DNA from: Cellulomonas flavigena DSM 20109
GTDB lineage: Bacteria > Actinomycetota > Actinomycetes > Actinomycetales > Cellulomonadaceae
Direction of reading: 5' to 3'
NCBI RefSeq assembly: GCF_000092865.1
Contig: NC_014151.1
Coordinates: forward strand, 3,038,001 to 3,102,000
DNA length: 64,000 nt
The position numbers and the translations under genes are program-made. Shown here one piece after another: positions 13,920-52,972 of the stretch. The stretch's first letter is position 1. Every line of letters starts with the position of its first letter. The notes beneath the pieces are model-generated. The model did not search any database and was not told where the DNA came from. It worked only from the letters and a program-made list of their open reading frames with translations.

Positions 13920-14156
13920 TCAGGACGTCCGGCGGCTCTCGCCGTAGCCCTCGGGCTCGACCGTGGCCGACGACCGCAGGTACGCGTCGAGCGCGTCCTG
14001 CGGCACCCGGAACGACCGCCCGACACGCACGGCCGGCAGCTCGCCGGCGTGCACGAGCCGGTACACGGTCATGCGCGACACCCGCATGAGGTCCGCGACC
14101 TCGACAACCGTGAGGAACCGCACGCGACGCTGCGGCCCGCCCTGTCCCTCGCTCAT
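13920..14156 (-). CDS. BldC-like helix-turn-helix protein
   Basis: This 78-residue excisionase/MerR-type DNA-binding protein contains FLTVVEVADLMRVSRMTVYRLVHAGELPAVRVGRSFRVP, the conserved BldC-like winged-helix segment. In streptomycetes BldC is a developmental repressor; in non-sporulating actinomycetes the role is unclear. GGAGG lies about 10 nt before the ATG at 14156. A GTG two codons earlier is an alternative with closer spacing. A -10-like TACTGT on the minus strand lies at 14228-14223. Confidence 0.85.
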   Translation of the reverse strand: MSEGQGGPQRRVRFLTVVEVADLMRVSRMTVYRLVHAGELPAVRVGRSFRVPQDALDAYLRSSATVEPEGYGESRRTS

Positions 14157-44659: not shown

Positions 44660-47260
44660 GTGGGTCCCGGTGAGCTGCTCGAGGTGCTCCTCGCCGGTGG
44701 GCGACGGGCCGACCGGGCGACCCACGTGCGCGAGCTCCCGGCGCGGCCGGGGGTCCGCGCGGACTGGCCCGCGTGGGCCGACGCGGACCTGGTGCGCGGG
44801 TACCGGGCGCTGGGCGTCGAACGGCCCTGGGAACACCAGGTCGACGCGGCCGAGGCAGCGTGGTCGGGCCGGCACACCGTGCTCGCGACGTCCACCGGGT
44901 CCGGCAAGTCGCTGGCCTTCTGGCTGCCCGCGGTCTCGGCCGTGCGGCGTGGTGCCGTGGGGGCGCTGCTGGACCCGGGACGCATCGAGTCGGCGACGCG
45001 GCGCCCGACGGTGCTGTACCTGGGCCCGACGAAGGCGCTCGCAGCGGACCAGCTCGCGGGGCTCGAGCGTCTGCTGGCAGCGGCGGGGACGCGCGACGTG
45101 CGGGTCGCGACGTGCGACGGCGACACGTCGCGCGACGAGCGCCGCTGGGTGCGCGAGCACGCGGACGTCGTCCTCACCAACCCCGACTTCCTGCACTTCG
45201 CGCTGCTGCCCGCGCACACGTCGTGGTCGCGCGTGCTGTCGTCGCTGGCCTTCGTGGTCGTCGACGAGTGCCACGCGTTCCGCGGTGTGTTCGGCGCGCA
45301 CGTCGCGTTGGTGCTGCGCCGGCTGCGGCGCCTGGCCGCGGCGTACGATGCCGCGCCGGTGGTCGTGCTGGCGTCGGCCACGACCTCCGACCCGGCCGCG
45401 AGCGCCGCCCGTCTGCTGGGCGTCGAGCCCGGTGACGTGCACGCCGTCACGGCGGACACGTCGCCGGCCGGGCGCAGGACCGTCGTGCTGTGGCAGCCGC
45501 CGGAGCTGCCCAGTGGCGACGGGCCGTGGGCGTCGCTGCTGCCCGACGAGGACCCGTGGTCGACGGTGATCACCGTGCCGGCGAGCGACGGCGCGGCCCG
45601 CGCGCTCGCCGGGGCGGACGACAGCGGTACGCAGGACGCGGCCGGCGCCACGGACGGTGCCGGAGCGCCGGCGGGGCCGGCACCTGTCGCCGAGGGGTCG
45701 GGGCCGGTGGGCACGGGTGAGCGCCTCGTCGCGGTGCCCCGGGACCGTCCGCGACGCACGGCGACGGCGGAGGTCGCCGACCTGCTGGCGGACCTGGTCG
45801 CGGCCGGGGCCCGCGTGCTGGCGTTCACGCGGTCGCGGCGCGGCGCGGAGTCGGTCGCCGCGACGACGCGGGCCCACCTGGCGGAGGTCGACCCGACGCT
45901 GCCGTCGCTCGTGTCGTCGTACCGCGGCGGCTACCTGCCCGAGGAGCGGCGTGCCCTGGAGCGTGCCATCCGCGCCGGGCACCTGCGGGCCCTCGCGACG
46001 ACGAACGCGCTGGAGCTGGGCGTCGACATCTCGGGGCTCGACGCGGTGCTCATCGCCGGCTGGCCGGGAACACGTGTCTCGCTGTGGCAGCAGGCGGGCC
46101 GCGCCGGGCGGGCGGGCGCGGACGGCCTCGTCGTGCTCGTCTCGCGCGAGGACCCGCTCGACACGTACCTCGTGCACCACCCGGAGGCGGCGCTGGACGT
46201 GCCCGTCGAGGCCACCGTGTTCGACCCGGGCAACCCGTACGTGCTCGCGCCGCACCTGTGCGCGGCCGCCGCGGAGCGTCCGCTGCGCGCGGACGAGCTC
46301 GACCTGTTCGGCCCGCGGGCGCCCGAGCTGCTGGCCGAGCTCACCGCGCGCGGCATCCTGCGTCGCCGCTCGTCCGGCTGGTACTGGACGCACGCCGAGC
46401 CGGCGAGCCGCATGACGGACCTGCGCGGCGCCGGCGGCGACCCCGTGCGCGTCGTCGAGACGGCGACGGGCCGTCTGCTGGGCACCGTGGACGCCGCGTC
46501 GGCCGACGCGACCGTGCACCCCGGGGCCGTGTACGTGCACCTGGGCACGACGTACGTGGTCGACGAGCTGCACCTGCAGGACGGTGTCGCCCTGGCGACG
46601 CGACGGGCCGTCGACCACGGCACGTGGGCGCGCTGGGTGACCTCGACGACCGTCGTCGACGTCGAGCGCGAGGTCGCGTGGGGTCCGCTGACGTGGTCCT
46701 ACGGACAGGTGGACGTGACGACGCAGGTGATCGGGTACCAGCGGCGACGGCTCCCGGACCTGCAGGTGCTCTCGACGCACGACCTCGACCTGCCCGCGCG
46801 CACGCTGCGCACGACCGCCGTGTGGTGGACGACCCCGCCCGAGGTGCTGGCCGAGGCCGGTGTCACGCTCGAGGTCGCCCCGGGTGCGCTGCACGCCGCC
46901 GAGCACGCGTCGATCGGTCTGCTGCCCCTGCTCGCGACGTGCGACCGCTGGGACCTCGGCGGACTGTCGACGCTTCAGCACCCGGACACCGGGCAGGCGA
47001 CGGTGTTCGTCCACGACGGGCACCCCGGCGGTGCGGGGTTCGCCGAGCGCGGCTTCGAGCTGGGGCCGGTGTGGCTCACCGCGACGCGGGACGCGATCGC
47101 CGCCTGCCCGTGCGCGACGGGCTGCCCGGCGTGCGTCCAGTCCCCCAAGTGCGGCAACGGGAACGAGCCGCTCGACAAGGCCGGCGCCCTGCGCCTGCTG
47201 TCCACCGTCCTGCGCCACGCCGCGGACGCGCCGACGCCGGACGACCCCGCCGCGCGCTGA
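44660..47260 (+). CDS. DEAD/DEAH-box helicase, MrfA/Hrq1-like
   Basis: This 866-residue superfamily 2 helicase has Walker A STGSGKS, DECH box, SATT (motif III), LELGVDISGLDAV and QQAGRAGRAG (motif VI). The C-terminal DUF1998 domain has the four-cysteine cluster CPCATGCPACVQSPKCGNGNE. This matches the MrfA/YprA family that repairs mitomycin-type DNA damage in Bacillus. A loosely charged insert (about 300-370) is lineage-specific. CAGGAT lies 6 nt before the GTG start, suggesting leaderless translation. The partner exonuclease MrfB is not in the window. Confidence 0.92.
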   Translation: MGPGELLEVLLAGGRRADRATHVRELPARPGVRADWPAWADADLVRGYRALGVERPWEHQVDAAEAAWSGRHTVLATSTGSGKSLAFWLPAVSAVRRGAVGALLDPGRIESATRRPTVLYLGPTKALAADQLAGLERLLAAAGTRDVRVATCDGDTSRDERRWVREHADVVLTNPDFLHFALLPAHTSWSRVLSSLAFVVVDECHAFRGVFGAHVALVLRRLRRLAAAYDAAPVVVLASATTSDPAASAARLLGVEPGDVHAVTADTSPAGRRTVVLWQPPELPSGDGPWASLLPDEDPWSTVITVPASDGAARALAGADDSGTQDAAGATDGAGAPAGPAPVAEGSGPVGTGERLVAVPRDRPRRTATAEVADLLADLVAAGARVLAFTRSRRGAESVAATTRAHLAEVDPTLPSLVSSYRGGYLPEERRALERAIRAGHLRALATTNALELGVDISGLDAVLIAGWPGTRVSLWQQAGRAGRAGADGLVVLVSREDPLDTYLVHHPEAALDVPVEATVFDPGNPYVLAPHLCAAAAERPLRADELDLFGPRAPELLAELTARGILRRRSSGWYWTHAEPASRMTDLRGAGGDPVRVVETATGRLLGTVDAASADATVHPGAVYVHLGTTYVVDELHLQDGVALATRRAVDHGTWARWVTSTTVVDVEREVAWGPLTWSYGQVDVTTQVIGYQRRRLPDLQVLSTHDLDLPARTLRTTAVWWTTPPEVLAEAGVTLEVAPGALHAAEHASIGLLPLLATCDRWDLGGLSTLQHPDTGQATVFVHDGHPGGAGFAERGFELGPVWLTATRDAIAACPCATGCPACVQSPKCGNGNEPLDKAGALRLLSTVLRHAADAPTPDDPAAR

Positions 47261-47740
47261 CCTGGCCCGCACGTGCCCGGCACCCGTCGGACGCGTGGGA
47301 CGGGGCCGCCGCCCGCCGGTCGAGGAGCGCTGGCCCGCGCGCGCCACGTCGCGGCCCGTCCCGGCGGCACCGTCGACGCGCACGTGCACCGTGACGTCGC
47401 CGCTCGACCCGCGCACGCACGACGTCACGACCGCGCCGTTCCTGCCGGCCGCCTCGTCGGCCCGACCGCACGGGTCGGCGCCCCCGCCGGCCACGTGCTG
47501 CGCGGCCGCCAGCGCCGCGACGTCCGCGGCCAGCGCCGCGCGGACCGCGGTGACGTGCGCGGCGCCCACGACCGCCGTCGCCAGCACGAGCGACGACGCG
47601 ACCGCGACCACCGCCAGGACCAGCACGGTCCCCGACCCTGCATCCCGCGGGTGCGACCCCCCACCGCCGCGACGCGGCGCGGTGGTGCGTGACCGCGCTC
47701 GGCTGCGCAGGAGTCCCGCACCGGGAGGTGCCGCGCTCAC
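47261..47740 (-). CDS. TadE/TadG-like secreted protein (Rv3654c type), 3' end undefined
   Basis: The GTG at 47740 overlaps the upstream TadE-like stop (GTGA). The N-terminal 130 residues fit the Rv3654c-type family: a basic leader, GSGTVLVLAVVAVASSLVLATAVVGAAHVT, then AALAADVAALAAAQHVAGGGADPC and CVRGSSGDVTVHVRVDG. A normal end is expected near residue 140, but no stop occurs in any minus frame before the helicase gene. The reading frame then runs on antisense to the helicase for kilobases. The end given here is only the helicase boundary. The stop codon has probably been lost or shifted. Confidence 0.5.
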
Positions 47741-48132
47741 GGTTCCGCCCAGCTCGTCGCGGAGCCCTGTGCCCGTGCGCCGCCGAGGACCGACCAGCCG
47801 GTGAACGGCGTACTCACGGTGACGGTGACCCAGCCCTCGTCACGCGCGACGCGCACCTCACCCCGGTCGCCGAGCACGCGACGGGCCGCAGCGACGACCA
47901 CGTCGTCGGGCTCGCCGAGGGCCGCGACCCGGGCACCCGTGCGAGCGGCGTCGAGGCACGTCAGCCGCGCGACGGTGGCGGCCCCGGTCGCGAGGACCGC
48001 GACCAGCACCACGGCGACGGCGACCATGCCCACCGCGAGCTCGGCGGTGACGGCGCCGCGGTCGCTCACGTCGCCGAGGCGGAGCCGTCCGGCCCGCAGG
48101 ACGTCGCCCGGACCGCGGCGCCGACCGCTCAT
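47737..48132 (-). CDS. TadE-like pilus minor pilin
   Basis: This 131-residue protein has a basic N-terminus and then GAVTAELAVGMVAVAVVLVAVLATGAATVA. The Glu after the processing site and the long hydrophobic helix are typical of TadE-like pseudopilins. The remaining 75 residues form a small extracytoplasmic domain. The ATG at 48132 overlaps the pilin stop (ATGA). An inner GTG at 48069 would remove the basic leader. It is part of the Flp/Tad pilus set. Confidence 0.85.
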   Translation of the reverse strand: MSGRRRGPGDVLRAGRLRLGDVSDRGAVTAELAVGMVAVAVVLVAVLATGAATVARLTCLDAARTGARVAALGEPDDVVVAAARRVLGDRGEVRVARDEGWVTVTVSTPFTGWSVLGGARAQGSATSWAEP

Positions 48133-48431
48133 CCGCCGAGCGCCTGACGCACGATGCCGGACAGCAGGCCCTTCACCTCGTTGCCCTTGAGCACCACGAG
48201 CAGCAGGCCCGCGAACCCGACCGCGGCCAGCGTCGCGATCGCGTACTCCGCGGTCGCCATGCCCGCGTCGTGCGCCGCCGTCCGGGCAGCGCTGGTCCGC
48301 CCCCGTGCTGCGGCGACCACCGCTGCCACGCCGCCCGTCACCGCGCGCTCGGTGTGCGTGGGCGAGGCGGACCGGCCCGCCCTGTTCTTCCGTGTCTCGC
48401 CCTCGGTCTCGGCCCTCGTCACGTGTGCCAT
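48129..48431 (-). CDS. Flp-type pilin, DUF4244 family
   Basis: This 100-residue protein has a long basic leader of about 57 residues and then DAGMATAEYAIATLAAVGFAGLLLVVLKGNEVKGLLSGIVRQ, the DUF4244 signature. The leader-peptidase site Gly-Met and the Glu at mature position about 5 match class III (Flp) pilins. It should be the main pilus subunit. AGGAG lies 7 nt before the ATG at 48431. A bipartite element 100-145 bp upstream is shared with the other half of the tad locus. Confidence 0.87.
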   Translation of the reverse strand: MAHVTRAETEGETRKNRAGRSASPTHTERAVTGGVAAVVAAARGRTSAARTAAHDAGMATAEYAIATLAAVGFAGLLLVVLKGNEVKGLLSGIVRQALGG

Positions 48432-48675
48432 CGGTCGTCTCCTTCATCGCATCGGCCCGCCGGGCCGGGCACCGCTGTGGCGCCCGTGACGAGCCTCGGC
48501 GCCCGCCGCGTCGCCGTGGGCCGTGGCTCGGCGATCCGTGGACGAGGCACGCGAGAGAGGGGGCTGTGGTCGGCTCACCAGCGGGGACTGGCTACCGACG
48601 GGCGACGAGTACGGCCGGCGAGGCTCCTGTCCCGCTCCGTGACGCGGCGTCGTCACCTTCGCTAGGGTCCGGCAC
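48432..48675. promoter_or_regulatory. Pilin promoter region and start of the inserted gene
   Basis: This gap carries the bipartite tad element (48533-48577) on the pilin side and the TAGGGT -10 of the plus-strand hendecad gene at 48663-48668, which ends 7 nt before its GTG. No other coding frame is credible. Confidence 0.5.
48533..48577 (-). promoter_or_regulatory. Bipartite tad element, copy 1 (upstream of pilin)
   Basis: GATCCGTGGAC (48533-48543), 15 bp, then GGGGGCTGTGGTCGGCTCA (48559-48577), read on the plus strand. Copy 2 lies at 52838-52882 with the same spacing and 29 of 30 identical motif bases. Confidence 0.7.
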
Positions 48676-49344
48676 GTGACGCCGCTGCCGAGTCCGAGCC
48701 CGATCCACGTCGTCCTCCGGCAGGCGTCCAGCGGCACCGACTGGTGGACCCCGGGCGTCCTCGTGCCGTTGACCGTCGCCCTGGTCGCCCTGAGCGGCGT
48801 GGTGTGGTCCACCTGGCACAACGCGCGGGCGAGCCGGAAGGCCGAGGACAGACGCGCGCACGCGGCGATCGCCGCGGAGGATCGCCGCGCCGCCGCCGCC
48901 ATCGACGCCGAGAACCTCCGCCACGAGCACGCGATCGAGGCGGAGAACCTCCGCCACGAGCACGCGATCGAGGCCGCTCGGAAGGGGCGCGTGGTCGAGG
49001 CCCGGCACCAGTTCTACGTGGAGCTGGAGGCCGCACGGATCGCGCTCTCCGACGCGCTCGGCGCGATCCCGACGATGCGCTCGGAGTCGATCGATCCAGA
49101 GAGGCAGCAGCGCTTGAGGCAGGCCGTCGAGCAGTTCGCGGGTGTCCGAGCCACGGCAGGTCTGCACGCGAGCAGAGAGGTCGAGCGCGCGGCGGCGTTC
49201 GTCCAGGAAGCGGCCTCCCTGTTCACCATCGGTCAGCCGAGCGTGCCTCCGACCACCAAGCAGCGGACGCGGGAGGAGCACCTTCGGCAGAGGGTCGCGG
49301 AGCTGAGGGACAAGCTCCGGGCCGAGGTCGGGGTCGAGGACTGA
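48676..49344 (+). CDS. Membrane-anchored hendecad coiled-coil protein inserted in the tad locus
   Basis: This 222-residue protein has one transmembrane helix (about 27-46) and then four 11-residue repeats (56-99): AEDRRAHAAIA, AEDRRAAAAID and two exact AENLRHEHAIE copies encoded by a 33-bp tandem duplication. A charged helical domain follows (about 100-222). Eleven-residue periodicity suggests a right-handed coiled coil. The GTG lies 7 nt after TAGGGT, so it is probably leaderless. No family is recognised. It runs opposite to the tad genes on both sides. Confidence 0.75.
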   Translation: MTPLPSPSPIHVVLRQASSGTDWWTPGVLVPLTVALVALSGVVWSTWHNARASRKAEDRRAHAAIAAEDRRAAAAIDAENLRHEHAIEAENLRHEHAIEAARKGRVVEARHQFYVELEAARIALSDALGAIPTMRSESIDPERQQRLRQAVEQFAGVRATAGLHASREVERAAAFVQEAASLFTIGQPSVPPTTKQRTREEHLRQRVAELRDKLRAEVGVED

Positions 49345-49393
49345 GCACCTCGAGCAGGCAGGCGTGACAGCCTGCCCGCTGCGCGCACGACGC

Positions 49394-50101
49394 TCAGGGC
49401 ACGACCGCTCGGAGGTCACCGGCGAGACCGAGCACCACGGGGACCAGCCCGAGGAGCACGAACGCCGGCAGGAAGCACGCGCCGAGCGGGAGCGTGAGCC
49501 GCACACCGAGCGCCCCGGCGGCGGCGCGGACGTGCGCCCGGTGCTCGCGGCGTAGACCGGCAGCGGCGGCACGCAGCGCGGGGCGTGGTGAGGCTCCGGC
49601 GTCCCAGCCGCCGCGCAGCGCCCGCGCGAGCGCAGCGACCGACGGCGGGGCGCCCGCCCAGGCGGCGTCCCAGGGTGCGCCGAGGGCGAGCGCCGTCCCG
49701 GCGCGGGCGAGCGCGTCGCCGTCCGCGCCGCCGAGGTGCCGGCCCGTCACCGCGAGCGCGGTCGGCACCGGCGCGCCGCCACGGACGGCGGCCGCGCACA
49801 GTTCGAGCACGAACGCCGGGTCGAGGTCCCGATCGGTCCGGCGCGGACCGTGCCGTCGTCCCCGTACCGGGGCGTCACACCACCGCATCAGGGCACGCCA
49901 CGCGCCGGGCCGGCGGTACCCGGCAGCCTGCGGGGTCACCGGCCCGGGGGCCGCACCGGGGACCACGAGGTGCGTGCGCGGGGTGGGCCCTGCGCGCGGG
50001 TCCCCCCGACGTCGCGGCGCGCCGGGTCGTCGGACCACCCACGGCAGCGCTCCCAGCAGCACGCACGCGCCCACGACGACTCCCACCGCCACCGGGCTCA
50101 C
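49394..50101 (-). CDS. tadC: TadC-like type II secretion F family protein
   Basis: This 235-residue membrane protein has an N-terminal helix (VAVGVVVGACVLLGALPWVV), a cytoplasmic domain with LELCAAAVRGGAPVPTALAVTGRHLGG, and two C-terminal hydrophobic stretches ending LPAFVLLGLVPVVLGLAGDL. It is the inner-membrane platform of the Tad pilus machine. The GTG at 50101 overlaps the tadB stop. It would normally be followed by the pilin gene, but the hendecad gene intervenes on the other strand. Confidence 0.87.
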   Translation of the reverse strand: MSPVAVGVVVGACVLLGALPWVVRRPGAPRRRGDPRAGPTPRTHLVVPGAAPGPVTPQAAGYRRPGAWRALMRWCDAPVRGRRHGPRRTDRDLDPAFVLELCAAAVRGGAPVPTALAVTGRHLGGADGDALARAGTALALGAPWDAAWAGAPPSVAALARALRGGWDAGASPRPALRAAAAGLRREHRAHVRAAAGALGVRLTLPLGACFLPAFVLLGLVPVVLGLAGDLRAVVP

Positions 50102-50829
50102 GGCGCCGCGGCCCGGCGCAGCAGCGCCTGGACCCAGACCTGTCCGGCGACGAGCAGCCCGACACCCGTGACCGCCACCGCGCTGCCGAACCCGCCGTCG
50201 GTGAGCACGTCCCACGGCCGCGCGCCCATGCCCGCGCCCACGAGCAGGCCGAGCACGGGCAGCGCCGCGAGGACGCGCGCCGTCGCGCGCGGCCCGGCGA
50301 GCGCCGACTCCAGCTCGCCCGCCTGCTCGGCGTCGGCGGCGACGGCGTCCGCGAGGTGCTCGAGCACGTCGGCGAGCGGTGCGCCCGTCTCGGCGGCGAC
50401 GTGCGCGCCCGCGACGACCGCGCGGGCCCGGGCGCGCGTGGCCGACCGGTCGCCGACCACCGCGGTCAGCGCCTCGACGGCAGGCACGTCGCCGGTCACC
50501 GTCTGCCCCAGCACCGCACCCCACGCGGCGCCGGGCGGCGCACCGGCTCGGACGCGCGCGGAGACCGCGTGCAGGACGCTCGCGAGGTCCTCGGGCGCGG
50601 CACGCCGCCGACCTCCTGCCGCCCCGCGCGGTGCGCCCGACGATCCGCGGCCCGCGCCCGGACGTCCCGACGCCCCCGCGAGCCCGGACCTCGCCGAGCG
50701 TCCGACCACCGACGCTCGCCCGGGTCCTGTCATCCACCCCGGCCCGGCGACCACCCGCAGCCGACCCGCGGCCGGCGCCGGCAGCACCACGACGGCCACC
50801 GCCACCAGCACCCCGACGACGACGCTCAC
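50098..50829 (-). CDS. tadB: TadB-like type II secretion F family protein
   Basis: This 243-residue platform protein has an N-terminal hydrophobic helix (VSVVVGVLVAVAVVVLPAP), a basic Gly/Ala linker, the F-domain segment EDLASVLHAVSARVRAGAPPGAAWGAVLG with GAHVAAETGAPLADVLEHLADAV, and two C-terminal helices. It pairs with TadC at the base of the pilus. The GTG at 50829 overlaps the tadA stop by 4 bp. Confidence 0.87.
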   Translation of the reverse strand: MSVVVGVLVAVAVVVLPAPAAGRLRVVAGPGWMTGPGRASVVGRSARSGLAGASGRPGAGRGSSGAPRGAAGGRRRAAPEDLASVLHAVSARVRAGAPPGAAWGAVLGQTVTGDVPAVEALTAVVGDRSATRARARAVVAGAHVAAETGAPLADVLEHLADAVAADAEQAGELESALAGPRATARVLAALPVLGLLVGAGMGARPWDVLTDGGFGSAVAVTGVGLLVAGQVWVQALLRRAAAP

Positions 50830-52043
50830 GCCCCGACCTCGGTGCGTGCCGCGAGCCGCGCCCAGCCCTCGCCGGGCCGCACCCGACCGTCCTCCGCCAC
50901 GGCGACGGCGGTGACGACCCGCAGCCCGCCGTCGCCCACCCGTTCGACGACCCCGATCTCCGCGAGGTGCCGCCGCCCGGCGTCCGGGCCGTGCCGCACG
51001 CGTCGCACGTGCAGCACCGCGTCGACGGCACTGGCGGCCTGCGCCGCGACCGCCGCGCGGTCCATCCCCGCGAGGGCGGCCAGCGCCTCCAGCCGGGCGG
51101 GGACGTCGGCGGCCGTGTTGGCGTGCAGCGTCGCGCAGCCGCCCTCGTGGCCGGTGTTGAGCGCGGCGAGCACCTCGCGCACCTCGGCACCGCGGCACTC
51201 GCCCAGCACGATCCGGTCGGGTCGCATGCGCAGCGCCTGGCGCACGAGGTCCGCGAGGTCGACGCCGCCCGCGCCGTCGACGTTGGGCGGCCGGCTCGTC
51301 AGCCGCACGACGTGCGGGTGGTCGGCGACGAGCTCCCCGGCCTCCTCCACGAGCACGACGCGCTCGTCGTGCGGGACGAGCGACAGCAGCGCCGCGAGCA
51401 GGGTCGTCTTGCCCGCTCCGGTGGCGCCCGAGACCAGCACGTTGGCCCGCGACGTCACGATCCCGCGCAGCACGGGCTCGAGCGTGGGCGGTACCGCACC
51501 GGCCGCGACGAGCTCGGCCAGGGTGAACGCGCGCGGCCGCACGACGCGCAGGCTCATCACCGTGCACCCCTCGGCCAGCGGCGGCAGGACGGCGTGCAGA
51601 CGGGTGCCGTCGGGCAGGCGCGCGTCGACGGTGGGCGCGGCGTCGTCGAGCCGGCGGCCTGCCGCCGAGGCGAGGCGGACGGCGAGCGCGCGGACGTCGG
51701 CGGGGGTCCCCAGGTCCACGTCGACGCGCCGCAGAGCGCCGTCCCGTTCCACCCACACGTCGCGCGCGCCGTTGACCAGCACGTCCGTCACGGCCGGGTC
51801 GTCGAGCCAGGGCTGCAGAGGTCCGGCACCGAGCAGCGTGTCGGCGACGGCGCGCACCGTGGCCGCCAGCGGCTCGGGGCCGAGCAGCGTCCCGTGCGCG
51901 CGCAGGGCGGCGTCGACGAGCGCGGGCAGACCGTCGACCGCTGGGTGCGGGCGGGTGCGCAGCGCGTCGCGGACGTGCGCCACGACCTCGTCGGGCACGG
52001 ACCGGCGCGCCGGCGCCGCGCTGCGCCCGAGGAGGCCCGTCAC
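50826..52043 (-). CDS. tadA: TadA/CpaF-type pilus assembly ATPase
   Basis: This 405-residue secretion ATPase powers Flp pilus assembly. Walker A is SGATGAGKT (205-213), the Asp box is DERVVLVEEAGEL, Walker B is PDRIVLGECRGAE, and the His box is NTGHEGGCATLHAN. The N-terminal domain carries the usual DDPAVTDVLVNG block. GTG 52043 overlaps the stop of the upstream CpaE-like gene, which fixes the start. Confidence 0.93.
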   Translation of the reverse strand: MTGLLGRSAAPARRSVPDEVVAHVRDALRTRPHPAVDGLPALVDAALRAHGTLLGPEPLAATVRAVADTLLGAGPLQPWLDDPAVTDVLVNGARDVWVERDGALRRVDVDLGTPADVRALAVRLASAAGRRLDDAAPTVDARLPDGTRLHAVLPPLAEGCTVMSLRVVRPRAFTLAELVAAGAVPPTLEPVLRGIVTSRANVLVSGATGAGKTTLLAALLSLVPHDERVVLVEEAGELVADHPHVVRLTSRPPNVDGAGGVDLADLVRQALRMRPDRIVLGECRGAEVREVLAALNTGHEGGCATLHANTAADVPARLEALAALAGMDRAAVAAQAASAVDAVLHVRRVRHGPDAGRRHLAEIGVVERVGDGGLRVVTAVAVAEDGRVRPGEGWARLAARTEVGA

Positions 52044-52750
52044 GAGCTCGTCCGCAGACGCCGCACGACCGCGTCCGCTGCTCGCGCGGCCGGCCCTCGC
52101 CCACCGGGGCCGATGCGTTCGGCACGGGCCGCCAGCGCGCGGTCGCGGCGAGCGGCGTGCCACACGTCGAGCCCGCTCGCCGCCGCCACGTCGCCGGCCC
52201 CGAGCGTCGTGCGGGCACCACGCTGGACCACGAGCCCGGCGGCGGTGCGGGCCTCGTCCAGCCGCGGCCGCAGCGCGAGCGCCCCGGCGACGCTGCGCAG
52301 GTCGGCACGGGCCGCGACGACAGTCGCCTCGCACGCGGCCAGCGGCGCGTCACCGTCGACGACGGTGCCGCGGTCGAGGTCGAGGACCAGCGCGCCGACC
52401 TCGCACGCGAGCGCGTGCAGCACGTCGACGCGCACCCCCGGGTCCACGGGCTCCGGTCGCGTGCGGTCCGCGGAGAGCACCGCGCACGCACCCCACCGCG
52501 GCAGCAGCGCGAGCACGTCCGCGCCGCGCACGTCACCACCGGCACCCCGCAGGTCCGGCCAGCGGGCACCGTCGACGTCCTCGACGCCCACGACCACGTC
52601 GAGCCCGCCGGCACCGCGGTCGAGGTCGACGAGCACCGTCGACGTCGTGCGGGACAGTCGTCGCGCCACCAGGGCGGCGAGCGTCGACGTCCCCACGCCA
52701 CCGGCCGCGCCGACCACTCCGACCACCACGGCCCTGCGTCCTTGCTGCAC
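52040..52750 (-). CDS. CpaE/Ssd-like P-loop protein of the tad operon
   Basis: This 236-residue ParA/MinD-like protein resembles the septum-site-determining Ssd type. The P-loop GAAGGVGTSTLAALVA (about 13-28) lacks the two signature lysines of active MinD-type ATPases, so nucleotide hydrolysis may be weak or lost. VLVDLDRGAGGLDVVVG and ALVLDLDRG follow as switch-like segments. It probably places the pilus machine in the cell. GGGGG precedes the GTG at 52750. It is the first gene of ssd-tadA-tadB-tadC. Confidence 0.82.
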   Translation of the reverse strand: MQQGRRAVVVGVVGAAGGVGTSTLAALVARRLSRTTSTVLVDLDRGAGGLDVVVGVEDVDGARWPDLRGAGGDVRGADVLALLPRWGACAVLSADRTRPEPVDPGVRVDVLHALACEVGALVLDLDRGTVVDGDAPLAACEATVVAARADLRSVAGALALRPRLDEARTAAGLVVQRGARTTLGAGDVAAASGLDVWHAARRDRALAARAERIGPGGRGPAARAADAVVRRLRTSS

Positions 52751-52972
52751 GCGTCCCCCTCGCCCCTCGATCCGTACGGGAGTCCCGTGGACCCGACCCT
52801 GCAGCACCCCGCAGGCCCAAGACCCGCGGTCGGACCAGATCTGTGGACCGACCCGCCGCCACGGGGGGCTGTGGTCGGCTCAGAGGGTCGAGGGACCGCC
52901 GACCGGGCGACCGTGCCACCGTCGGGGGACGGCGCAACACGCCCGTCACCGACGCCGCCTACAGTCCCGGGC
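52751..52972. promoter_or_regulatory. Divergent promoter region, tad operon/acetamidase
   Basis: This gap contains copy 2 of the bipartite tad element, a dyad GGTCGG/CCGACC at 52828-52853 centred on AGATCT, and a TACAGT -10 (52960-52965) that ends 7 nt before the acetamidase ATG. No gene was seen in it. Confidence 0.5.
52838..52882 (-). promoter_or_regulatory. Bipartite tad element, copy 2 (upstream of ssd-tadABC)
   Basis: GATCTGTGGAC (52838-52848), 15 bp, then GGGGGCTGTGGTCGGCTCA (52864-52882). It lies 114 bp upstream of the operon start on the GGGGG side, against 128 bp for copy 1. Confidence 0.7.

Follow-up and report, generated by a model that had tools for sequence, protein, structure and literature searches.

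The tad pilus locus of Cellulomonas flavigena DSM 20109 raises a simple question: what is the role of a 45-bp bipartite element that stands, almost unchanged, in front of both of its halves, the pilin operon and the ssd-tadABC operon? We examined the element in a window of 64,000 nucleotides (NC_014151.1, positions 3,038,001 to 3,102,000; "the window" denotes this whole stretch, and its positions are counted from its first letter), in the complete source genome, and across the genus, order and class. Judging from sequence comparison, the element very probably serves as an upstream activator box for a natural-competence regulon that extends over much of the class Actinomycetes.

The element at the tad locus and in the source genome

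Both copies described in a previous sequence-only reading were recovered exactly, at 48533-48577 and 52838-52882, and both matches lie on the plus strand and thus share one orientation. Allowing up to three mismatches, the element had exactly these two matches across the window, and 100 shuffles gave none. As had been reported, 29 of 30 motif bases are identical between the copies, while the two 15-bp spacers agree at 4 of 15 positions, about the level of chance. The distance to the start codon was put at 114-128 bp; we measured 101 bp for the pilin (start 48431) and 108 bp for ssd (start 52729). Since the target genes are on the minus strand, the element reads TGAGCCGACCACAGCCCCC-N15-GTCCACRGATC in the sense of the genes. 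Its conserved core in that sense is CCGACCACAG-N20-GTCCAC, and the neighbouring G/C run is conserved only in part. The features of the two operons are as follows (window positions; lengths in amino acids, aa; Pfam matches with their expect value, E):

48533-48577, minus strand: putative competence box upstream of the tad pilin, an exact match and one of a genome-wide family, reading towards the pilin
48564-48573, minus strand: upstream half-site CCGACCACAG of the pilin box, in columns nearly invariant over 80 sites
48536-48543, minus strand: downstream half-site GTCCACGG of the pilin box, from the site alignment
48492-48497, minus strand: predicted -10 hexamer GAGGCT of the pilin, 40 bp after GTCCAC
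52838-52882, minus strand: putative competence box upstream of ssd-tadABC, an exact match, reading towards ssd
52869-52878, minus strand: upstream half-site CCGACCACAG of the ssd box, from the site alignment
52841-52848, minus strand: downstream half-site GTCCACAG of the ssd box, from the site alignment
52796-52801, minus strand: predicted -10 hexamer CAGGGT of ssd, 41 bp after GTCCAC
48129-48431, minus strand: tad pilin, DUF4244 (Pfam PF14029, E 2.6e-21)
47737-48132, minus strand: gene for a 131-aa protein, second in the pilin operon, with a weak DUF4244 match below the cut-off
52040-52729, minus strand: ssd, 229 aa, CpaE/MinD-like by eye, with no Pfam match and named from the earlier reading and its place in the operon
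50826-52043, minus strand: tadA (Pfam T2SSE, PF00437, E 6.4e-57)
50098-50829, minus strand: tadB-like gene (Pfam T2SSF, E 7.6e-7)
49394-50098, minus strand: tadC-like gene (Pfam T2SSF, E 2.6e-8)

Beyond the window, the pattern GTGGAC-N20-CTGTGGTCGGCT occurs throughout the 4.12-Mb single-contig genome, with 5 exact matches, 10 at up to one mismatch and 16 at up to two; at up to three mismatches there were 34 matches, compared with 8 for a backward control. (Genes were called with a custom codon-usage caller, not a standard program, and our site counts omit a LigD site, L050, with three mismatches, as well as all three-mismatch matches in this genome.) Seven of the 16 sites face core competence loci, namely the tad pilin, ssd-tadABC, comEA-comEC(-holA), yraN-comM with dprA next to it, recA, an ssb-family gene and a comF-like phosphoribosyltransferase gene. 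Pfam matches on the targets identified ComEA (HHH_3, SLBB), ComEC (PF03772), RecA, SSB and UPF0102/YraN, and likewise ComM (Mg_chelatase), DprA (PF02481), ComF (Pribosyltran), the tad pilin and TadA. The remaining sites precede genes for a WXG100 protein, a DUF4192 protein, an FtsK/SpoIIIE-type ATPase, FhaA, an NfeD-like protein, a 101-aa protein followed by a PGAP1-like protein, and three AbiEi-type proteins (two recognized by Pfam, the third by blastp to those two).

This distribution bears on what was proposed from the window alone. Frequent genome-wide occurrence unrelated to tad genes had been named as a refutation, and the element is indeed genome-wide, but it lies mostly before competence genes. 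The idea that it coordinates the pilin with its machine stands insofar as the box couples both tad operons; its restriction to tad was wrong, as the box marks a programme of DNA uptake and recombination. An operator coupling only the pilin to the machine would explain why both tad operons carry the box, but with 14 further sites at up to two mismatches before non-tad genes it is refuted in its exclusive form and scarcely credible.

Promoter architecture and spread across the class

Within the genus, 28 of 60 genomes had a match at up to one mismatch, ten of them with 7-15 sites, and the backward control gave none in all 60. We compiled 80 sites at up to two mismatches from seven genomes, the source genome and six relatives (sites were drawn from G003, G044, G045, G031 and G057 plus one of G053; G016, G019, G023 and others were left out). 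Seventy-nine of the 80 lie outside called genes. At 73 sites the downstream gene belongs to a family shared by two or more of the seven genomes, and at 36 it is a core competence or tad gene, the first downstream gene being the next gene on the strand towards which the box reads, at any distance. The most widespread downstream families were ssb (seven genomes), DUF4192 and yraN-comM (six each), and AbiEi-like genes (nine sites) and ssd (five each). Four genomes each shared comEA-comEC, recA, the pilin, WXG100, a methyladenine glycosylase and a 150-aa protein, and three each comF, an M23 peptidase, a SAF/RcpC-like protein and the 101-aa protein. Absence before the tad genes of relatives had also been named as a refutation; the box is present before ssd-tadA in five and before the pilin in four of these seven genomes, the source genome included. 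Further box-bearing tad loci were found at ssd (L201, L206, L427, L429, L435, L436, L438) and at the pilin (L439). In a collection of all species with one genome per species, the exact pattern AGCCGACCACAG-N20-GTCCAC had 28 matches, 25 in Cellulomonas, 1 in Cellulosimicrobium and 2 in others, and no near match to the element was found in a plasmid collection.

Aligning the 80 sites revealed two nearly invariant blocks, columns 0-11 (AGCCGACCACAG) and columns 32-37 (GTCCAC, then [AC]G[AG]TC), with a variable mid-spacer between them. The blocks align with each other as a direct repeat, CCGWCCACAG, of 28-bp period. Sites from other orders of the class may have GTCCACAG-N20-GTCCACAG as their core, which repeats directly with the same period. 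The two "heads" of the original description are therefore the units of this 28-bp-period direct repeat, which shows most clearly beyond the genus. A search of the spacer for a hairpin or palindrome gave no clear dyad: the best symmetry centre of the genus set reached a combined z of 3.4 but did not rank in the top six when the other sets were pooled.

The box is also tied to a promoter. In the genus, GTCCAC is followed by a -10-like hexamer (.A...T) placed 39, 40 or 41 bp downstream; counted at 39-42 bp, 69 of the 80 sites have it, where 3.1 would be expected from other offsets, and so do 35 of 40 sites of the order set and 26 of 30 of the class set described below (1.6 expected in each). No -35 consensus was evident when the 69 sites were aligned: ahead of the -10, nothing stood out beyond a preference for C in single columns. 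Transcription is predicted to start about 7 bp beyond the -10, as at a sigma-70-type promoter. Start-codon triplets cluster 52-54 bp after GTCCAC (counts of 45, 24 and 16 in the 80, 40 and 30 sites), so that many target genes may be leaderless, and 22 of 79 called genes in the genus set start 51-54 bp after it. The earlier proposal saw a two-headed regulator site or an unusual promoter in conserved motifs that flank a variable spacer of constant length. It holds as a regulator site tied to a promoter, with the -10 at a fixed distance supplying the missing anatomy. The same data speak to the view that the box is a dispersed repeat or a DNA-uptake signal sequence and not a promoter element. Such a sequence would be expected in many copies in bacteria with competence genes, as seen here, but the source genome holds only 16 copies at up to two mismatches, the genus sites avoid called genes (79/80), the -10 distance is fixed, the spacers are unconserved and no clear dyad exists; we consider it highly improbable.

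Outside the genus, the pattern was relaxed. A scan of the order with CCGNCCACAG-N20-GTCCAC gave 73 sites in 30 of 297 genomes, compared with 5 control matches, and 27 of the 30 genomes were outside the genus. We read 40 of the 58 outside-genus sites, from 12 of these 27 genomes, and several single matches separately, naming genes by blastp to the genus proteins and otherwise from the N-terminal sequence by eye, as in the class set. By blastp, the downstream protein was similar to a genus regulon protein at 28 of the 40 sites. Genomes with a single match were mixed, with convincing sites before comEA (L163), yraN (L153) and DUF4192 (L155). Base 4 of the upstream half-site tracks lineage, being A in the genus, C in family f8 and T in several others. 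In the class, CGTCCACAG-N20-GTCCACAG gave 49 sites in 24 of 394 genomes (2 control matches), 44 of them, in 22 genomes, outside the order; families f22 and f37 had no matching genome in this sample. All 30 class sites that were read fall outside called genes, and by blastp the downstream protein of 26 is homologous to a regulon protein of the genus. Without four loci of the same order (L411, L412, L435, L436), the -10 was present at 22 of 26 sites and a regulon homolog at 22 of 26.

Overall, a single element is shared by the operons for DNA import, single-stranded DNA processing and the pilus, and it keeps a fixed distance to the core promoter, as a cis-element of a competence regulon would. 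Because the site lies upstream of the -10, a clear -35 is missing and the distance is kept within 1-2 bp over many families, we favour an activator that contacts RNA polymerase, and the direct repeats suggest head-to-tail protomers. This putative DNA-binding activator would occupy two half-sites in the same orientation (CCGACCACAG upstream and GTCCAC downstream in the genus, GTCCACAG and GTCCACAG in many other genomes, 28 bp start to start), would sit some 50-91 bp before the point where transcription is predicted to begin, and would aid the housekeeping RNA polymerase where a promoter offers a -10 but lacks a recognisable -35. A single signal would then turn on the Tad/Flp pilus (pilin, ssd-tadABC and an RcpC/CpaB-like protein), DNA import (comEA-comEC, comF), and the steps that process the imported strand and recombine it (ssb, yraN-comM-dprA, recA). 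Companions that would be co-activated are DUF4192, WXG100, the M23 peptidase, nucleases of a winged helix-turn-helix (wHTH)/Vsr-like type and methyladenine glycosylase. The box, its spacing, the -10, the gene list and the taxonomic range are read directly from the sequences, whereas we infer both activation and its induction at competence from the position of the box and the content of the gene set.

The presence of recA, ssb and methyladenine glycosylase in this set would also suit a DNA-damage element (LexA-, PafBC- or similar) that covers competence genes incidentally. Yet the recurring core is the pilus together with ComEA, ComEC, ComF and DprA, which serve uptake, not repair, and the box is not known to match LexA GAAC-N4-GTTC or the RecA-NDp motif, which lies near its -10 (no search aimed at either was made); we consider a damage regulon quite improbable.

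Several observations weigh against a competence activator box that is shared so widely. No match at up to one mismatch was found in 32 of the 60 genus genomes, sites of related species are not independent, and some regulon members (NfeD-like, FhaA, methyladenine glycosylase) have no known link to competence. Twelve of the 40 order sites lack a downstream homolog; there is no -10 at order loci L142, L146, L150-L152 and L156-L162, and L156-L160 (family f15) also lack a fitting gene. Before yraN and comEA of relatives, the two genes for which presence of the box was surveyed, it is by no means general. Upstream of yraN, a box with a -10 rose above the null in only 9 of 40 genomes (hand-chosen for spread from 289; L228 and L249, above the null but without a -10, were excluded), and three of the four same-genus genomes in this sample had no box. 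Upstream of comEA, family f17 gave clear matches in 2 of 30 cases, at a 29-bp period, and family f19 mostly one half-site with a -10, or nothing (by eye, with no null). Moreover, the strongest C preference (52 of 69 sites) falls 21 bp before the -10, where a -35 would be. Finally, an activator best accounts for the constant distance to the -10, but a repressor could act at the same promoters. The repeat period itself appears to vary: it is apparently 29 bp in family f17 (L358 and L361, where the -10 distance is still 40; see also L229) and perhaps 30 bp, by eye, in L351, L365 and L370.

Candidate binders of the box

Which protein might bind the box? The actinobacterial DnaA box is TTGTCCACA, which GTCCACA resembles, and the half-sites could be DnaA boxes through which DnaA links competence to the replication state. 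We compared them with two forms of the DnaA box, a strict TT[AGT]TNCACA and a loose YY[GAC]TCCACA. In the order set, 12 of 40 upstream half-sites and 36 of 40 downstream ones agree with the loose form. The corresponding class figures are 26 of 30 and 23 of 30, a fit that is partly built in because the class pattern contained GTCCACAG. Among downstream half-sites, the strict form is matched by 1 of 40 in the order set and by 5 of 30 in the class set. In the genus, by contrast, the strict form fits none of the 80 upstream or 80 downstream half-sites and the loose form only 2 and 7. The upstream half-site there has C in place of the two leading T of the DnaA box, A as its fourth base in 72 of 80 sites and a conserved G after the core, and sites of family f8 have C as the fourth base. 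On these comparisons the genus sites speak against DnaA, those of other groups do so less clearly, and it is an improbable binder.

A more specific candidate comes from Micrococcus luteus, in which nearly all mutants with raised comEA/EC promoter activity were hit in Mlut_14660, its leader or its divergent SAF/RcpC neighbour, and in which a single missense change reproduces the phenotype (PMC8467076). These genetics point to the HTH_17 protein Mlut_14660, beside the SAF/RcpC operon (PMC8467076), and the box might be bound by the counterpart of this small BldC-like, excisionase-family protein, as repressor or activator. The source genome has the same divergent HTH_17-SAF pair (L252), a SAF homolog lies within the same 3-kb locus as the HTH_17 gene at 27 of 30 loci, and a box-like repeat with a -10 faces the SAF gene at L260, L266 and L267 (no null was computed). 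The related protein BldC recognises direct repeats, and at whiI the region from -50 to -80 is protected by it (PMC5859096). Like BldC sites, the box has at least two half-sites in the same orientation, but neither CCGACCACAG nor GTCCACAG follows the BldC consensus AATTXXXX(C). An HTH_17 homolog is moreover present in 243 of 297 order genomes, so its presence hardly discriminates.

Counter-evidence comes from a genome of the same family, G253 (one contig, rated 100% complete), which has boxes with a -10 before DUF4192-, comF- and ssb-like genes (L380, L383, L386; named by eye) but no close HTH_17 homolog, the best match having E 5.6e-6 and 38% identity over about 50 residues. This weakens HTH_17 as sole regulator, and since G253 keeps three boxes without a close homolog, HTH_17 may act on the pathway without binding the box; we regard it as an unlikely binder. 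Two more genomes, G043 and G015, also lack a close HTH_17 homolog and have box counts of 25 against 35 and 16 against 22 in the control, respectively; of the ten loci read in each, one match per genome (L379, L381) has a -10 and could be a remnant box.

At L260, L266 and L267, the diverged SAF-facing box lies just upstream of the HTH_17 start codon. Because it sits between SAF and HTH_17, the intergenic promoter-up mutations of M. luteus might hit the box and not the HTH leader. The window encodes a second small HTH_17/excisionase-type protein of 78 aa (13920-14156, minus strand), beside a gene for a 32-aa basic protein; it is the genome's best HTH_17 match (E 1.4e-16). A MerR-like gene behind the box in G200 (L208) was set aside as a single case.

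Companion genes and the proposed competence programme

The multi-copy wHTH (AbiEi-type) family is the commonest single target family in the genus set, at 9 of 80 sites. In 14 box-linked sequences, E207, D240, E254 and G257 are invariant and D256 nearly so. In a Foldseek comparison, the domain predicted to be catalytic was similar to I-Bth0305I, a Vsr-like homing endonuclease (probability 0.93, target template modelling (TM) score 0.68, but E 0.32), and one member matches the restriction endonuclease family MTES_1575 below the cut-off. Together these features weakly suggest that the proteins are nucleases. DUF4192 genes bear the box in many species, often starting 51-53 bp after GTCCAC. The predicted DUF4192 fold had no match in the PDB at E <= 0.001 and weak matches to RadC-like (target TM 0.60, E 0.09) and TPR-like folds; by its recurrent box, DUF4192 is a candidate for an unstudied competence protein. 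The box is also common to WXG100 genes, FtsK/SpoIIIE-type genes, pairs of WXG-like and lipase-like genes, and M23 peptidase genes, which could form a weapon or lysis arm of the competence programme. The loci are:

L038:5003-5995, L045:5293-6213, L047:4009-4929 and relatives: wHTH (AbiEi-type) family members
L041:3826-4974; L086, L102, L112, L120, L136, L145, L192, L380, L417, L422, L428: DUF4192 box loci
L036:5293-5580, L043:5053-9006, L049:4687-4992, L092 (176-aa M23), L187, L194: WXG100, FtsK, WXG/lipase-like and M23 box loci

Two neighbours of the pilin operon in the window are on the plus strand. A gene for a 222-aa protein without a Pfam match (48676-49344) is divergent from the pilin, with the box directed away from it, and a gene for an MrfA/Hrq1-like DEAD-box helicase (DEAD, MZB, WHD_HRQ1; 44660-47260) adjoins the operon. 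An Rfam scan of the window gave no match at gathering scores.

Competence boxes are familiar from model species: the ComK box of Bacillus, the cin-box of Streptococcus and the CRP-S site of Haemophilus and Vibrio. As in those systems, one cis-element here is common to operons for DNA uptake, single-strand protection and recombination. It differs in its sequence, in an architecture that pairs a 28-bp-period direct repeat with a -10 placed 39-42 bp further on and no clear -35, in serving a Tad/Flp pilus, and in belonging to a different phylum. The machinery is that of M. luteus competence, with a tad/Flp pilus, comEA/EC and a SAF/RcpC operon beside HTH_17 (PMC4322843, PMC8467076, PMC6667448, PMC12849477); the available parts of PMC8467076, PMC6667448 and PMC12849477 describe no shared promoter element. 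BldC of Streptomyces likewise recognises direct repeats, at about -50 to -80 at one target, but it recognises AATTXXXX(C) and represses development, and its repeats would be closer than 28 bp because two fit in a site of 22 to 30 bp (PMC5859096).

A further parallel is found in Vibrio cholerae, where QstR/TfoX couple competence to contact-dependent killing (PMC6237807). Here the companions are instead WXG100/FtsK-like, M23 peptidase and Vsr-like nuclease genes, and their coupling is inferred from shared boxes only. We put forward, as an evenly balanced proposition, that one conserved activator runs competence through the box across much of Actinomycetes, and that its programme exceeds DNA uptake by including a murein hydrolase, WXG100/FtsK-type secretion, wHTH-Vsr-like nucleases and DUF4192, as a counterpart of competence-linked killing and DNA processing.

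Natural transformation in Actinobacteria was discovered more than four decades ago (PMC4322843), and in January 2026 the competence regulon of M. luteus was still called unknown, its upstream signals and regulatory cascade yet to be identified (PMC12849477). No such element was described in the literature we searched on actinobacterial competence and on the half-site letters, a coverage that excludes most subscription journals and preprints; in the available texts, the letters GTCCACAG occur in four papers, as primers in three and as a Deinococcus radiation motif in one. The finding makes the question of this regulon directly testable, since the box predicts its members, defines the promoter architecture exactly and can serve as DNA bait for the regulator. 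It also offers new candidate competence genes, among them DUF4192, M23, the wHTH/Vsr-like nuclease and the 150-aa protein, and would aid predictions of the species able to become transformable. Knowing the switch could render hard-to-transform actinomycetes genetically tractable.

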